Source of the DNA: Clostridia bacterium
GTDB lineage: Bacteria; Bacillota; Clostridia; Christensenellales; Borkfalkiaceae
Direction: 5' to 3'
Length of the DNA stretch: 61,359 nt
NCBI GenBank assembly: GCA_017507005.1
Contig: JAFWBT010000017.1
Location: 1-61,359, forward strand
Below are positions 54,793 to 61,359 of the stretch, piece after piece. How positions within the stretch are numbered: the stretch's first letter is position 1; each line of letters begins with the position of its first letter. The notes under the pieces were generated by a model. It made no database searches. It was given only the letters and a program-made list of their open reading frames with translations, and had not been told where the DNA came from. The translations under genes were made by a program, and so were the position numbers.

Positions 54793-55599
54793 TTATTTAT
54801 TTTTAATGACGAGCCGTTCCACAAGCGCAACGATTGCGTACATTGCCGCGGCAAGAACGCAGAGGATAAACACTGCGCTCATAACAAGGTCGAGCTTGAA
54901 TACTTGCCCGCCGTACACGATAAGGTACCCAATGCCTGCTTTCGATACGATATATTCGCCCATAATCGAACCTATCCAAGCCATGCCGACGTTGATTTTC
55001 AGCATAGAGATAAAATTCGGCAAAGACGAGGGGATAACGAGTTTCGTCAGGATTTGTATTTTGGACGCGCCCATTGAGCGCAAGAGCAACAGTTTGTTTT
55101 CGTCCGTCGCCATAAAGCCGTTTAGCATATTCAATATCGCCACAATCAGCCCGATAAGGACGGTCATGAATACGATAGCCTCGCTGCCCGTGCCGCACCA
55201 AATAATAATGAGTGGGCCTAAGGCGATTTTTGGCAGGGCGTTAAGGACGACGAAGTACGGCTCGGAAATCCGCCGAAACGCCTCGCTCCACCACAGCAAC
55301 AGCGCAACGGCGTAGCCTACGACGACGGCGATAAAAAAGCCTGTCAAGGTCTCCCAAAGCGTCGTGCCGACGTGATAGAACAGCGTACCGTTTTCATACA
55401 ACTGCGCTATCGTTTTGCCGATGCGAGAGGGGGAGCTGGTGATAAAGGGGTTAATCCAAGCAAACCGCGCGGACAGCTCCCATATCAACAGCAAGAGAAA
55501 CAAAATGGCGAATCTAGCAATGTTGACGGCGATGCTTTTATTGCGTACGCTTTTGAGGTATTGCAGATGCCGAGGGGAATAATTCATAGATTTTTTCAT
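54793..55599 (-). CDS. ABC importer permease, SsuC/TauC/ThiX-like
   Basis: 268 residues starting at ATG 55597-55599, which overlaps the ATPase stop (ATGA) and has AAGGAG upstream. Six helices; the EAA loop LLLLRSMGASKIQILTKLVIPSSLPNFISMLKINVGMAW is the nitrate/sulfonate/taurine-type pattern. The N-terminal 25 residues are polar. Substrate not deducible from the permease; see the binding protein. Confidence 0.92.
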   Translation of the reverse strand: MKKSMNYSPRHLQYLKSVRNKSIAVNIARFAILFLLLLIWELSARFAWINPFITSSPSRIGKTIAQLYENGTLFYHVGTTLWETLTGFFIAVVVGYAVALLLWWSEAFRRISEPYFVVLNALPKIALGPLIIIWCGTGSEAIVFMTVLIGLIVAILNMLNGFMATDENKLLLLRSMGASKIQILTKLVIPSSLPNFISMLKINVGMAWIGSIMGEYIVSKAGIGYLIVYGGQVFKLDLVMSAVFILCVLAAAMYAIVALVERLVIKNK

Positions 55600-56330
55600 G
55601 CGTTCAACTCCTTCCAAAGCAGCTCGAACCAACGTGAAAACTCCTTGTTTTCACGGCGTTTCAACGGCTCGTTTTCAGGAAACGAGAGCAGGTGCTTTGC
55701 CGTAACGCGCGCAGGGCGCTGAGATAAAACGAAGATTTTATCCGCTACGGAAATAGCCTCGCTTATGTCGTGGGTGATGAGCAGAGCCGTTTTCTTTTCG
55801 TTGCGTATGATTTTGTATACGTCGTCGCAGACGGACAGCCGCGTCTGATAGTCCAAAGCCGAAAAAGGTTCATCAAGTAACAACACGTCGGGATTGACGG
55901 CGAGGGTGCGAATCAGGGCGGCGCGTTGTCGCATACCGCCTGATAGAGAGGACGGGTAGTTTTTTAAAAACTGTTTCAAGCCGTACTTTTCTGCCAAAGC
56001 GAGTGCGCGTTCACGGTTTTGCGGCGTATTCGCGCGTTTGATTTCGAGGGGCAGAAAGATGTTTTTTTCAATGGTACGCCAAGGGAACAGTTCGTCTTTT
56101 TGTAACATGTAACCAAAGGAAACGTCGCCGTTTTTCACTTTTCCGTCCGTGGGGGTAAGTAAGCCCGCCGCCAAGGAAAGCAACGTCGTTTTGCCACAGC
56201 CCGACGGGCCGATAATCGCCACGAATTCACCTTCCTTTACGGAAAAATTTACCTTTTCCAGCGCCACCGTTTCGCCTTGTTTGCTGTGATAGTGCATCGA
56301 AACGTCTTCGAATCGTAAAACTTCTTTCAT
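55596..56330 (-). CDS. ABC importer ATPase, SsuB/TauB/ThiZ-like
   Basis: 244 residues. Walker A GPSGCGKTTLL, Q-loop YMLQKDELFPWRT, signature [16 protein letters not shown], Walker B VLLLDEPFSALDYQTR, H-loop LLITHDISEAISVAD. The TRLSV after the D-loop and the PWRT segment are typical of the nitrate/sulfonate/taurine class. 21 bases after the binding protein in the minus direction. Confidence 0.94.
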   Translation of the reverse strand: MKEVLRFEDVSMHYHSKQGETVALEKVNFSVKEGEFVAIIGPSGCGKTTLLSLAAGLLTPTDGKVKNGDVSFGYMLQKDELFPWRTIEKNIFLPLEIKRANTPQNRERALALAEKYGLKQFLKNYPSSLSGGMRQRAALIRTLAVNPDVLLLDEPFSALDYQTRLSVCDDVYKIIRNEKKTALLITHDISEAISVADKIFVLSQRPARVTAKHLLSFPENEPLKRRENKEFSRWFELLWKELNA

Positions 56331-56351
56331 TTGCGTATCTTCCTTATAGGG

Positions 56352-57368
56352 TTATTCGTATATCTCCGCGTACACTTTTTCTGCGTAGGAATTATCCGCC
56401 AGCTCGTTCAAGCTCGCGCGACGAGACAATTCACCTGCGTTTTCAATGATGTCCTGCAAGCGGTTAAAGCTGTCTTCCGTCATACTCAATTCCGTGCGCC
56501 ACGCGTCAATCGCTTTGTAGCGGTCGATAGACGCGGCAATCGATTGTTCGGAAATACCTTCAAAATATTTCGTGAGGTAGGGCGCGACGATTGCGGAATC
56601 GGTATCGTTGACGTATTTTACCGCTTTGGTGACGGCGCGAAGAAAACCTTCTGCGTATTCGCTGTTTTTTTGTAACCACGAGCGTTTTGCCATAAAGCAG
56701 GTGTAGGGGACTTCGCCCGACGCTTCGCCCACGGACGCCACAACGTAGCCCTTGCCCGATGCCTCGTATTCGTACGCGGTGGGGTCGAACATAGTGCAAT
56801 AGTCCGCTGTGCCTGCTTCAAAAGCGCTCACCATAAGATTGAACGCGACGTCGTAGTTGAGGTCGACATTGACGCCGTCCTGCAAGCCGTATTCGTTTAA
56901 TACGTATTCAAAAGTCATAGCAGGCACGCCGCCTTTTCTGCCAGCGAGGATTTCTTTGCCTTGAAGATCGCTCCATTGGAAGTTGGGTTGCGGCGTTCTC
57001 GATACCAAGAACGAACCGTCACGTTTGGTCAATTGACCAAATACGGTGGGAACGTCAGTAGAGCCGCCGATAAGTACGTACAGTGCTGCTTCGGGACCGC
57101 AAAAGCCGATGTCGGCGTCGCCTGAAAGTACAGCGGACATTACTTTATCCGCGCCGCCGCCGTTGGAAAGGTCGATTTTGATATTCTCTGACTCAAAATA
57201 GCCAAGGGATTCGGCAAGATACATAGGCGCGTAGAATACAGAATGGGTTACTTCGTTGATGCGGAGCGTTTTCATACCGCCGCTTGATTCGCTCTTACAA
57301 GCGGAAAGAGGGAGCAGGGTGAAACACGTGATAAGAGCCGCGCAGAGCGTTTTAATAATTTTTTGCAT
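56352..57368 (-). CDS. Substrate-binding lipoprotein, SsuA/NMT1/THI5-like
   Basis: 338 residues from ATG 57366-57368, the start that begins the lipoprotein signal (MQKIIKTLCAALITC, lipobox LSAC with Cys24). NMT1 pattern: THSVFYAPMYLAESLGYFESENI, GGADKVMSAVLSGDADIGFCGPEAAL, and AGRKGGVPAMTFEYVLNEYGL. Relatives bind sulfonates, nitrate, thiamine precursors or riboflavin. No sulfonatase or thiamine gene, and no TPP riboswitch, is seen nearby, so the ligand is undetermined. Confidence 0.9.
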   Translation of the reverse strand: MQKIIKTLCAALITCFTLLPLSACKSESSGGMKTLRINEVTHSVFYAPMYLAESLGYFESENIKIDLSNGGGADKVMSAVLSGDADIGFCGPEAALYVLIGGSTDVPTVFGQLTKRDGSFLVSRTPQPNFQWSDLQGKEILAGRKGGVPAMTFEYVLNEYGLQDGVNVDLNYDVAFNLMVSAFEAGTADYCTMFDPTAYEYEASGKGYVVASVGEASGEVPYTCFMAKRSWLQKNSEYAEGFLRAVTKAVKYVNDTDSAIVAPYLTKYFEGISEQSIAASIDRYKAIDAWRTELSMTEDSFNRLQDIIENAGELSRRASLNELADNSYAEKVYAEIYE

Positions 57369-57408
57369 AAAAAGTGGTTCTCCGATTAAAAATTTTTTGG
57401 AATAATAT

Positions 57409-57438
57409 ATTATATGTACGCCCATTTATAATTGACAA
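57409..57438 (-). promoter_or_regulatory. Promoter of the SsuABC-like operon
   Basis: On the minus strand TTGTCA (57433-57438), an 18-base spacer and TATAAT (57409-57414), 41 bases before the ATG. Its -35 box shares five bases with the valS -35 box on the other strand. Confidence 0.7.
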
Positions 57439-57460
57439 TTCCATTTTTTCGTATTATAAT
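57432..57460 (+). promoter_or_regulatory. Perfect-consensus sigma-A promoter of valS
   Basis: TTGACA (57432-57437), a 17-base spacer and TATAAT (57455-57460): both hexamers and the spacing match consensus exactly. Confidence 0.93.
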
Positions 57461-57484
57461 AGATAGGCTATGCTAGATTAAAAT

Positions 57485-57532
57485 AGCCGTTTGTCGCCCT
57501 TTTGCAAAATGGAAAATAGGGCGTAGACGGCT
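57485..57532 (+). promoter_or_regulatory. Long hairpin in the valS leader
   Basis: Outer stem AGCCGT/ACGGCT (57485-57490 with 57527-57532) and inner stem CGCCCT/AGGGCG (57495-57500 with 57518-57523), separated by a small internal loop and closed by a 17-base A-rich loop. The leader lacks the AGGGTGG T-box sequence and there is no U-run, so it is not a classical T-box attenuator. Confidence 0.6.
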
Positions 57533-57577
57533 TGAAAATACGGATAAAACAAGAGAAGCAAAGAGGTTTAACAAGTT

Positions 57578-60199
57578 ATGGAGATGCAAAAGACGTACAA
57601 TCCGAAAGACTTTGAAGACAGAATTTATGCCGACTGGGAACAGTCGGGGTATTTCCGCGCGGAAATCGACCAGAACAAAGTGCCGTTCACGATTATGATG
57701 CCGCCTCCCAACATCACGGGACAGCTGCACATGGGGCACGCAATGGACGCTACGATGCAGGATACCCTCATTCGTTTTAAGAGAATGCAGGGTTATGCGG
57801 CGTTGTGGTTGCCTGGGTGCGACCACGCTTCCATCGCAACGGAAGTAAAAATCGTTGAAAAAATGAAACAGGACGGCTTAACGAAAGCAGACCTTGGCAG
57901 AGACGGCTTTTTAAAGCGCGCGTGGGAATGGAAGGAACAGTACGGCAATCGTATCATGTTGCAGCAACGCAAAATGGGTACGTCTTGCGATTGGTCCCGT
58001 CAGGCCTTCACCATGGACGAAAAATGCTCGCGTGCGGTACGCGAAGTGTTCGTAAACCTCTATAATAAAGGGCTTATTTATCAGGGCGACAGAATTATCA
58101 ACTGGTGTCCCTGCTGTAAGACTGCGCTTTCCGACGCAGAAGTAGAATATGCGGAAGAAGGCGGGCATTTCTGGCATTTGCGTTATCCCGCGGCAGATGG
58201 CAGCGCAGACGTCGTAGTGGCGACGACGCGTCCTGAAACGATGCTCGGGGATACGGCGGTGGCAGTACATCCCGACGACGAACGCTATCAGGCGCTCGTG
58301 GGTAAAACGTTGAAATTGCCTTTGACGGACAGAGAAATTCCCGTCGTTGCGGACGAATACGTTGACCCCACTTTTGGTACGGGTTGCGTTAAGATTACGC
58401 CCGCGCACGACCCTAACGACTTTGAAGTGGGTAAGCGTCACGCTTTGCCCGTAATCCGCGTTATGAACGACGACGGCTCGATGAACGATCTGGCTGGCGT
58501 GTATAACGGTTTGGATAGATACGAAGCGAGAAAGCAGGTTGTAGCGGATTTGGAAAAGAGCGGCAATCTCGTGAAAATTGAGGCGCATACGCATAACGTA
58601 GGGCATTGCTATCGTTGTCATTCTACGGTAGAACCTATCGTTTCCAAACAGTGGTTTGTAAAAATGGAGCCGCTTGCAAAGCCCGCTATCAACGCTGTAA
58701 TGAAAAATAAAGTGAAGTTCGTTCCCGAACGTTTCTCCAAGACCTATTATAATTGGATGGAAAACGTTCGAGATTGGTGTATTTCCCGTCAGCTTTGGTG
58801 GGGACACCGTATTCCCGTATGGTATTGTAAAGACTGCGGCAAGGTAATCTGCACGAAAGAAGACCCTACGGCTTGTCCCGATTGCGGCAGCGCGAATATC
58901 CGTCAGGACGAAGACGTACTCGATACGTGGTTCTCGTCGGCGCTTTGGCCGTTCTCTACGCTCGGCTATCCCGACGTTACGGAAGATTATAAATATTTCT
59001 ATCCCACCGACGTGCTCGTTACGGGCTACGATATCATTTTCTTTTGGGTAGCGAGAATGATTTTCTCGGGTATTGAACATACTGGGAAAGTACCTTTCCA
59101 CGACGTTTTGATTCACGGTATTATTCGTGACGAACAGGGTAGAAAAATGAGTAAATCCCTCGGTAACGGTATCGACCCGTTAGAGGTTATTGAAAACTAC
59201 GGCGCAGACTCGCTTCGTCTGTCGTTGCTTACCGGCGTTGCGCCCGGTAACGACACCCGTTATTCGGATGCGAAAGTGGAATCCTGCCGTAATTTCATCA
59301 ATAAATTGTGGAACGCGGCGCGTTTCGTGCTCATGAACGTAGGGGATAAGAAAATCCCTCCTATCGAGGACGTAAAGCTTGCGCCTGCGGATAAGTGGAT
59401 TATCTCTAAATTGCAGAATTGTATTCGTGAAGTGACGACGAATCTTGGCAAGTACGAATTGGGCGTTGCGAGCGACCTTGCTATCGATTTCGTATGGGAT
59501 AATTTCTGCGATTGGTATATTGAATTGTCCAAACCCGCTCTTTACGGCGAGGATGAAAATAGAAAGTCGGACGCGCTCAGCGTATTGTGTTTCGTATTAG
59601 AAAACGCGTTGAAATTGTTGCATCCGTTCATTCCTTTCGTAACGGAAGAAATCTATTCCAACCTGCCCAACGTTTCGGGTAGCATTATGGTATCCGACTT
59701 CCCTCGTTATAATGCGAAAATGGCGTATAAGAAAGAGGCGAAGGCATTTGAAGGGGTAATGGAAATTATCAAGGCAGTACGCGCTATGAAAAAGGATGCG
59801 GAATGTCCTCCTTCCAAGAAAGTGGAATTGTACGTCGTTACCGACAGCAAGCGTCTTTTGCAGGTGAATAAAGACTGCATTATCAAGTTGTCGGGCGCGA
59901 GCGCGCTTACGTTCGTGGACAGCGTAGCTGAGGTAGAGGGCAAGACGGTGTCTGCCGTAACGGAGATCGCGCAAATTTATGTACCTTTGGGCGAACTCGT
60001 AGATATCGAAAAGGAAAAGGCAAGACTGACGGCGGAAATCGAACGTATCAACGGCGAAATCGCGCGTGCAGAGGGCAAGCTTAATAACGCAAACTTCGTT
60101 AGCAAAGCGCCTAAAAAATTGGTAGACGAAGAACGTGAAAAGGTGAAGAAATACCAAGATATGAAGGCAAAATGCGAAGAGCAGCTTGCGAATTTATAA
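57578..60199 (+). CDS. valS: Valyl-tRNA synthetase
   Basis: 873 residues. It charges tRNA-Val. HIGH motif HMGH at residues 51-54 in [18 protein letters not shown]1 editing domain (about 170-390; [17 protein letters not shown] and [12 protein letters not shown]), KMSKS in [17 protein letters not shown], anticodon-binding domain (about 610-760), and a C-terminal coiled coil ([25 protein letters not shown]) found only in ValRS. CxxC zinc-type cysteines occur at [11 protein letters not shown] and CPDCG. Start ATG 57578 is preceded by AGAGGTTTAACAAGTT. Consensus promoter and structured leader upstream. Confidence 0.97.
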
Positions 60200-60209
60200 G
60201 AAAATAACG

Positions 60210-60247
60210 AAAAAGTCTGCGTAAAAATGCTTTTACGTAGGCTTTTT
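60210..60247 (+). terminator. Terminator of valS
   Basis: A 17-bp stem AAAAAGTCTGCGTAAAA with TTTTACGTAGGCTTTTT (two G-T pairs) and an ATGC loop. Confidence 0.9.
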
Positions 60248-60290
60248 GCTAAAAAAAGCGGAAAAAATCAAAAAAAGTGCGTTCAAACGT

Positions 60291-60319
60291 TTGACAAAGA
60301 GAGACGAAACTGTTAAAAT
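60291..60319 (+). promoter_or_regulatory. Promoter of the rpsL-rpsG (str) operon
   Basis: TTGACA (60291-60296), a 17-base spacer and TAAAAT (60314-60319) with TGT before it. The leader to rpsL is about 145 bases. Confidence 0.88.
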
Positions 60320-60406
60320 AATAGCGTTGTCATGGTGTATGGGCGTACTATGCCCTCACGAAGAATTTTTCGGACAAGCCAAAAACAACTCAACTTTGCT
60401 TTCTTT

Positions 60407-60429
60407 GAAATTGCGATAAGGGCAATTTC
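60407..60429 (+). promoter_or_regulatory. Hairpin in the rpsL leader
   Basis: Perfect 8-bp stem GAAATTGC/GCAATTTC with loop GATAAGG, 42 bases before the rpsL start. A smaller GGGC/GCCC hairpin lies upstream near 60341-60355. Possible site for translational feedback; not matched to a known motif. Confidence 0.45.
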
Positions 60430-60471
60430 GAGAGAAGATATATCCAAAATTTTTACAAGGAGGTCAAATAC

Positions 60472-60846
60472 ATGCCTACTATCAATCAGCTCATCAGAAA
60501 GGGCAGAGAAAAACTCACCTACAAATCTAAGAGTCCTATTCTCGACAACTGCCCCCAAAAGCGCGGCGTTTGTTTGTCCGTAACCACGACTTCTCCTAAG
60601 AAGCCTAACTCCGCTATGCGTAAGATCGCACGTGTACGTCTTACGAACAAGCAGGAAGGTACGGTTTACATTCCCGGTGAAGGTCACAACCTTCAGGAAC
60701 ACAGCTCCGTTTTGATTAGAGGCGGCCGTGTTAAGGACTTGCCCGGTGTACGTTACCATATCGTACGTGGCGCTCTTGATACCGCCGGCGTTGCAAAACG
60801 TAAGCAGTCCCGTTCTAAGTACGGCGCAAAACGTCCTAAGGCGTAA
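60472..60846 (+). CDS. rpsL: 30S ribosomal protein S12
   Basis: 124 residues, near the short-form length. [13 protein letters not shown] start, [14 protein letters not shown] decoding loop with Lys43 and Lys44 as in streptomycin-sensitive strains, and [17 protein letters not shown]. It monitors codon-anticodon pairing in the A site. AAGGAGG lies nine bases before the ATG. First gene of the str operon. Confidence 0.98.
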
Positions 60847-60900
60847 GGCGACGTAACCTAAAAAAGGGAACGTAAAAAAACAAAAGGAAGCATTTGCTAT

Positions 60901-61112
60901 CCGAAGAGGTACGGGAACTCTGAAAACACCCGAAAGTCGGTTGCGTTTTAAGACTAAAACCAAAACGCAAAAGACCTACTTGTAATCGGAATATCGCTCG
61001 AAAAGCCCCGAATAAAAGTAGGCAGTATGCGACGAAAGTCGCAGAAGATTCGCACTTTCAAATAAAAATAGTGGAAAGCGCGATAGCTGTACTGAAGGGT
61101 TATGCCCTTATC
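60901..61112 (+). ncRNA. Structured spacer between rpsL and rpsG (candidate cis-regulatory RNA)
   Basis: The 291-base spacer holds at least five pairings in order: CCGA/TCGG (60901-60904 with 60937-60940) enclosing CGGG/CCCG (60912-60915 with 60929-60932); TTGCGTTTT/AAAACGCAA (60941-60949 with 60962-60970); CCTACTT/AAGTAGG (60975-60981 with 61016-61022) enclosing TCGG/CCGA (60986-60989 with 61008-61011); TGCGAC-GAAA-GTCGCA (61028-61043); GATA/TATC with AGGG/CCCT (61082-61112). AGAG (60905-60908) and CTCT (60918-60921) could add a pseudoknot. It lies between two co-transcribed ribosomal genes and has no promoter that I see. The function, perhaps S7 feedback, is inferred. Confidence 0.55.
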
Positions 61113-61137
61113 AAAAAATTAAAGGAGGATTAAAACT

Positions 61138-61359
61138 ATGCCTAGAAGAGGTAATGTCCCGAAGAGAGACGTTCTGCCCGATCCTATGTATAATAGTAAA
61201 GTCGTAACCAAGCTTATCAATCAGATTATGCTTGACGGCAAAAAAGGTACCGCGCAGACAATCGTTTATGATGCATTCAAAATCATGGGTGAAAAATTGA
61301 ATATGGATCCCATGGAAATTTTCAAGCAGGCTATGGAAAACGTTATGCCTGTTGTTGAA
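61138..61359 (+). CDS. rpsG: 30S ribosomal protein S7 (partial, 5' end only)
   Basis: The first 74 residues are present before the window ends: [22 protein letters not shown], then [22 protein letters not shown] and the MENVMPVVE segment, all matching S7. S7 nucleates 30S head assembly and in E. coli represses its own str operon by binding the S12-S7 spacer. AAAGGAGG lies eight bases before ATG 61138. Confidence 0.97.

Follow-up and report, generated by a model that had tools for sequence, protein, structure and literature searches.

We identified a conserved, structured RNA in the 291-nt spacer between rpsL and rpsG (rpsL end 60846, rpsG start 61138), close to the 3' end of the window, as we call the whole 61,359-nt stretch of DNA that was analysed. 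Our best reading is a new ribosomal-protein leader in the str operon, without a match in Rfam. It is probably cis-acting, with S7 as the presumed ligand repressing rpsG-fusA; this reading fits because of the strict rpsL-rpsG location and the precedent of E. coli. A candidate new ribosomal leader RNA had been proposed in the first-pass annotation, and the proposal is supported by the location between the two genes, by covariation, and by the Rfam search. As in the ribosomal-protein leader class, the predicted RNA is a conserved structure beside the putatively regulated gene in a ribosomal-protein operon, and covariation supports this structure except at helix P5. We take the window's family to be Borkfalkiaceae and its order Christensenellales (GTDB).

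Genomic setting and fold of the spacer RNA

The window stops inside the str operon. Because rpsG runs past its end, the name S7 was taken from the orthologue in the relative L002, where a fusA-like ORF follows 12 nt downstream of rpsG (best match EF-G, TIGR00484; this ORF is truncated where the locus stops). Upstream of rpsL lies a valS-like ORF (by eye) ending at 60199, followed by a promoter-like TTGACA-17-TAAAAT at 60291-60319; the scanned region contains two promoter-like sites, compared to a chance expectation of 1.9. Positions 60320-60471, a possible 5' UTR of rpsL of approximately 150 nt, contain an inverted repeat (GAAATTGC/GCAATTTC, by eye). No promoter-like site was found within the 291-nt spacer and no terminator-like site in 60190-61359. 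Sense frames of at least 20 aa in the spacer comprise one 20-aa frame and the tail of a 42-aa frame begun in rpsL, and an antisense 216-aa frame across rpsL extends to 60963. The earlier statement that no promoter, terminator, or open frame explains the structure was thus borne out, as were the spacer length, its gene borders, and each of the named stems when re-read at its coordinates (Table 1).

The spacer had also been described as highly folded, and its minimum free energy of -73.3 kcal/mol agrees with this (shuffles, -57.2 ± 5.0; z -3.25; 1 of 200 as good), as does that of the 3' core (-45.8 vs. -32.6 ± 3.5 for shuffles; z -3.80; 0 of 200 as good). Broad conservation is confined to the 3' ~155 nt (60973-61129), and the 5' part with the pseudoknot and the 9-bp hairpin P0 is a genus-level addition; TTGCGTTTT of P0 is present in 27 of 29 own-genus spacers (L029 and L030 differ). 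The core consists of a long arm (P1-P3), an adjoining three-way junction (P5/P4/P6), and a small hairpin (P7) before the rpsG Shine-Dalgarno sequence. RNAalifold without a supplied structure recovers P1, P2, P5, P4, P6, and P7.

Table 1. Features of the rpsL-rpsG region in window coordinates.
Feature	Position	Strand	Remarks
rpsL (30S ribosomal protein S12)	60472..60846	+	gene 5' of the RNA; NCBIfam TIGR00981, 220 bits
H-type pseudoknot	60905..60932	+	AGAG 60905-60908 / CTCT 60918-60921 crossing CGGG 60912-60915 / CCCG 60929-60932
P0, 9-bp hairpin TTGCGTTTT / AAAACGCAA	60941-60949 / 60962-60970	+	genus-level
P1, CCTACTT / AAGTAGG	60975-60981 / 61016-61022	+	encloses P2 and P3
P2, TCGG / CCGA	60986-60989 / 61008-61011	+	inside P1
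P3, short, GCT / AGC	60996-60998 / 61004-61006	+	81.1% paired
P5, CAGTA / TACTG	61023-61027 / 61090-61094	+	closes three-way junction with P4 and P6; found by RNAalifold
P4, TGCGAC-GAAA-GTCGCA hairpin	61028..61043	+	flanked by strands GCAGTAT and AGAAG
P6, TCGC / GCGA	61050-61053 / 61080-61083	+	apical part variable: CTTTC 61055-61059 / GAAAG 61074-61078
P7, AAGGG / CCCTT hairpin	61095-61099 / 61105-61109	+	directly 5' of ribosome-binding site
rpsG Shine-Dalgarno AAAGGAGGA	61121..61129	+	in 29/29 own-genus spacers of alignment A1 (not selected for AAAGGAGGA)
rpsG (30S ribosomal protein S7), start only	61138..61359	+	L002 orthologue: TIGR01029, 230 bits

Covariation of the predicted helices

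Changes on both sides of predicted pairs exceeded those in shuffled alignments at three phylogenetic depths, and position, sequence, and structure are kept in close relatives; the two comparisons of homologous spacers suggested by the first-pass annotation therefore both came out in its favour. In alignment A5, 45 sequences from the window's own and 14 other genera were fitted to covariance model R1 (45 of 72 loci used, loci with long inserts left out). There 95.6% of cells pair, both-side changes occur at 19 of 34 pairs (shuffles, 10.4), and 130 cells are changed on both sides (shuffles, 35.2), although the fit leans towards the model. The MAFFT alignment A6 of 30 sequences from four families contains 51 both-side-changed cells compared to 11.2 in shuffles, and seven pairs with both-side changes compared to 4.4 (12 of 500 shuffles reach seven). 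The search pattern behind the A6 rows prescribed GCAGTA, GAAG, and the 3' strand (it picked up 33 of 34, of which 30 were aligned), so the invariance of these strands in A6 is by choice. The own genus alone has 23 both-side-changed cells vs. 6.3 in shuffles, with no excess of further pair types (10 vs. 11.3). The own-genus alignment A2 (33 of 34 loci; L033 omitted for its long insert) was selected by a pattern requiring CTACTTG and AAAGGAGGA, and A1 comprises 29 own-genus rows chosen without that pattern.

Helix by helix, P4 and P6 are supported by both the fitted and the four-family alignment, and P2 and P7 by the fitted alignment. Among the 45 sequences, P4 has both-side changes at all six pairs (99.2% paired; 5/5 pairs across four families), P6 at two of four (100% paired), P2 at three of four (98.9%), and P7 at five of five (90.2%). 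The apical pairs of P6 have both-side changes within the genus and some broken cells. P1 pairs in 98.7% of cells with zero both-side changes; family f29 has other complementary strands at the P1 position (by eye), e.g. UACCAAAU/AUUUGGUA in L110. P5 shows no both-side change (91.4% paired in the 45 sequences, 86.0% in the 30) and is hence not proven by covariation; its support consists of low variation and G-U changes. The possible H-type pseudoknot stood up within the own genus, where 19 of 28 sequences have best crossing helices that outperform 60 two-base-block shuffles (p ≤ 0.05), but it was not seen outside this genus. In alignment A7, restricted to 17 of the 28 sequences on account of their clear pseudoknot, pairing is seen in 92.6% of its cells and 13 are changed on both sides, compared to 2.9 in shuffles.

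Distribution within and beyond the family

Matches to the spacer DNA are present in 34 of the 57 own-genus genomes; S12 itself was detected in only 39 of these 57 because many are incomplete. Model R1, built from 32 own-genus sequences, recovers the core from 232 of the 301 family genomes (151 of 173 of good quality) and in all 18 sampled genera. Part of the R1 misses is a matter of sensitivity, as two such genomes (G105, G115) were recovered by model R2. The core lies between rpsL and rpsG in the 33 own-genus loci having both genes (in L028, S7 is absent at the contig end) and in all 40 loci obtained from other genera, a set that represents 15 of these 17 genera (all but g5 and g18). A pattern scan yielded at least 120 carrier MAG contigs; among the matches listed, all 113 contigs with both ORFs have the RNA between rpsL and rpsG, and one ORF is missing in 7 of 120. 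These three locus sets overlap. Of the 80 carrier titles among the matches listed, nearly all are 'Clostridia' or 'Clostridiales bacterium', many of them sampled from the gut of animals, with one Candidatus Gallimonas merdigallinarum. Nearly every matched genome has a single match (two only in G003, G030, and G159 among the matches listed), and no copy outside rpsL-rpsG was seen in the loci checked. Spacers with the RNA are 147-908 nt long in the family. Five loci (L086 and L088 of genus g10, L077-L079 of genus g7) have spacers of 382-808 nt with long extra stretches 5' or 3' of the conserved RNA, parts of which are shared by L086 and L088 (by eye). In L033 (G003; 401-nt spacer), from one own-genus species, the RNA is interrupted between P4 and P6 by a large insert.

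A divergent form occurs at rpsL-rpsG in three further families of the order (f9, f19, and f29; 19 loci). R2 matches 25 of 297 order genomes (23 own family, one f19, one f29). Seven of 42 order loci outside the family carry the divergent form (f19, L109 and L129-L131; f29, L110 and L111; f9, L139), L109 and L110 having been included because R2 matched them. Model R3 matches just these seven among the 42, and they had helped to build it; 12 further loci (11 f19, one f29), independent of R3 building, all have the RNA between the genes. The other spacers lack the motif (n = 26, 12-72 nt; n = 9, 118-336 nt). The claim that the two genes are usually separated by a few dozen bases thus holds for 26 of the 42 loci, but not for those nine, the seven motif carriers, or E. 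coli (96 nt). As 35 of the 42 loci have no such RNA, str-operon control can generally do without it. Spacers of f19 (e.g. L274, L275, and L276) have a conserved TTACAGTTCAA directly 5' of P1, which was not noticed in the window's family.

At E ≤ 0.05, R3 matches 53 of 317 order genomes (25 own family, 22 f19, three f29, one f9, and two f24). Both weak f24 matches (G498 and G564) were taken as chance, as they lie inside long reading frames with no adjoining S12 or S7, although they score E = 0.0015 and 7.7e-5, respectively, when R3 is run on the collected loci. No match outside the order was obtained among 391 genomes sampled from the class (six matches, all own family) or 398 from the phylum (one match, to the window's own genome); searches of more than 40 genomes were run with strict filters, by which weak matches are lost.

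Proposed regulation and comparison with known systems

S7 autoregulation is textbook knowledge for E. coli. According to passages of PMC10931766, S7 there initiates 16S 3'-domain folding; it also binds the S12-S7 spacer, repressing str-operon translation. For the leader described here, free S7 in excess over 16S rRNA would bind the conserved junction strands (GUAGGCAGUAUG, CAGAAG, and AUAGCUGUAC), and the complex would come to lie within the footprint of the initiating 30S subunit, blocking rpsG; fusA would be repressed too, through coupling, and rpsL would be less affected. The Shine-Dalgarno sequence is predicted to be mostly unpaired (mean unpaired probability 0.39-0.98 across 30 sequences), from which we infer that the default state without S7 is ON and that repression is exerted by bound protein in the 30S footprint. 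A Shine-Dalgarno switch operated by the 5' strand of P1 (CCUACUU, 6/7 complementary to AAGGAGG) was rejected: predicted pairing between the two is at most 0.19 in the 30 sequences, P1 forms at ≥0.82 in 26 of them (crude sum), and P1 of f19 and f29 is not Shine-Dalgarno-like (by eye).

A str-operon leader with another ligand, be it S12, EF-G, another ribosomal protein, or a small molecule as in a riboswitch, seems unlikely to us. The conserved unpaired bases could suit any partner and S7 was chosen solely from the position of the genes and the precedent in E. coli, but the RNA adjoins rpsG in loci with both ORFs, and S7 is known to autoregulate and to be a primary binder of 16S rRNA (PMC10931766, in part). 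We regard it as improbable that the RNA instead serves mRNA processing or stability, or that a trans-acting small RNA is cut from it out of the str transcript, with a structure that would protect the rpsG-fusA mRNA or uncouple it from rpsL. The long spacers (147-908 nt), which make rpsL-rpsG translational coupling unlikely, and the compact and stable structure would agree with such a role; the conserved unpaired strands, which suggest sequence recognition, and the scarcity of second matches and lack of copies elsewhere in the loci checked, described above, speak against it. That the stems arose by chance and were retained through recent common descent deserves hardly any credence. P1 and P5 show so little variation that a comparison of close relatives would not suffice to prove them, but covariation extends across 14 genera besides the own and across four families, and the pseudoknot is maintained through paired changes. 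In our view, the covariation in the 45-sequence and four-family alignments refutes this explanation.

Under the preferred reading as an S7 leader, the site might imitate the rRNA target, a feature that is frequent among ribosomal-protein leaders but not obligatory. It is conceivable, though we consider it doubtful, that the RNA reproduces the S7 site of 16S rRNA in circularly permuted, trimmed form with h30 cut out. P4 would stand for h42 (leader CAGUAU-P4-AGAAG vs. family 16S CAGAUU-h42-AUGAAG), P6 for h29 (UCGCUA / CAAGCGA in several genera, not the window's own, vs. UUGCUA / CAAGCAGC), and P5 for h41. S7 would then read rRNA and mRNA via one geometry, reached with different strand order. 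In part of PMC3548175, the S7-bound 16S fragment is described as including H30, H41, H42, and H43, with crosslinks at U1240, U1321, and C1378. The likeness to the permuted h29/h41/h42 junction is statistically marginal and only suggestive: post hoc joint p-values against family 16S are 0.074 (own genus), 0.045 (f1), 0.085 (f29), and 0.025 (f19), and against E. coli 16S they are not significant (0.51, 0.096, 0.35, and 0.12, respectively). Simple-sequence 16S mimicry was rejected, as most of eight leader segments peak outside the S7 region on two 16S sequences; S0 (E. coli 16S) and f19c (family 16S) match best within it, and f19a ties there on E. coli. 16S sequence was present in 0/1 (G000), 2/9, and 1/25 (cut before the S7 site) assemblies. 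The family 16S sequences L105 and L106 differ from the E. coli sequence at the S7/h29 site (1331 GAAGTAGGAGTTGCTAG; 936 CAAGCAGCGG), with the h29 pairing kept by our reading.

Comparison with Rfam 15, as proposed in the first-pass annotation, gave one chance match at lax thresholds in window positions 55000-61359 (15.5 bits vs. a cut-off of 160) and none at E ≤ 1 in 11 loci (10 besides the window's). No S7 leader for Clostridia was recognised in literature titles, abstracts, and passages, supplements aside. PMC8040213 reports thousands of candidates from human microbiomes, and its supplementary tables might contain this motif under a number, so an unnamed prior listing is possible. The ribosomal leaders of Eckert and Weinberg (2020), e.g. 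S4 in Clostridia, are RNAs of the same kind found by the same inference method; the main-text portion consulted (PMC7247131) mentions uS7, uS12, and rpsG nowhere and rpsl once, in the L13 row.

The Pelagibacter rpsL motif (Candidatus Pelagibacter ubique) is likewise a str-operon RNA with a three-way junction, but is located 5' of rpsL, occasionally of rpsG or fusA (PMC2704228, in passages). In the multiform rpsL-leaders, an intrinsic terminator precedes rpsL or, in streptococci, fusA (PMC2965389, in passages), whereas none is predicted in the Clostridia spacer. For the cyanobacterial rpsL-rpsG region, compared here by description only, a structural likeness to the 16S S7 site has been proposed, as related in PMC10931766. 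The E. coli S7 site shares the operon position and, as proposed here, the ligand and direction of control, but the two spacers have no common motif by eye; R3 gave no match at E ≤ 1 on the E. coli locus, a search in which distant likeness would be missed. In E. coli, repression requires coupled rpsL-rpsG translation, and the mRNA structure is not obviously conserved (PMC10931766, in passages). The Clostridia candidate has covariation, exact coordinates, and approximately 200 or more homologues, making S7 binding directly testable; if S7 does bind, the same control point would be reached in E. coli and these Clostridia via unrelated RNA.
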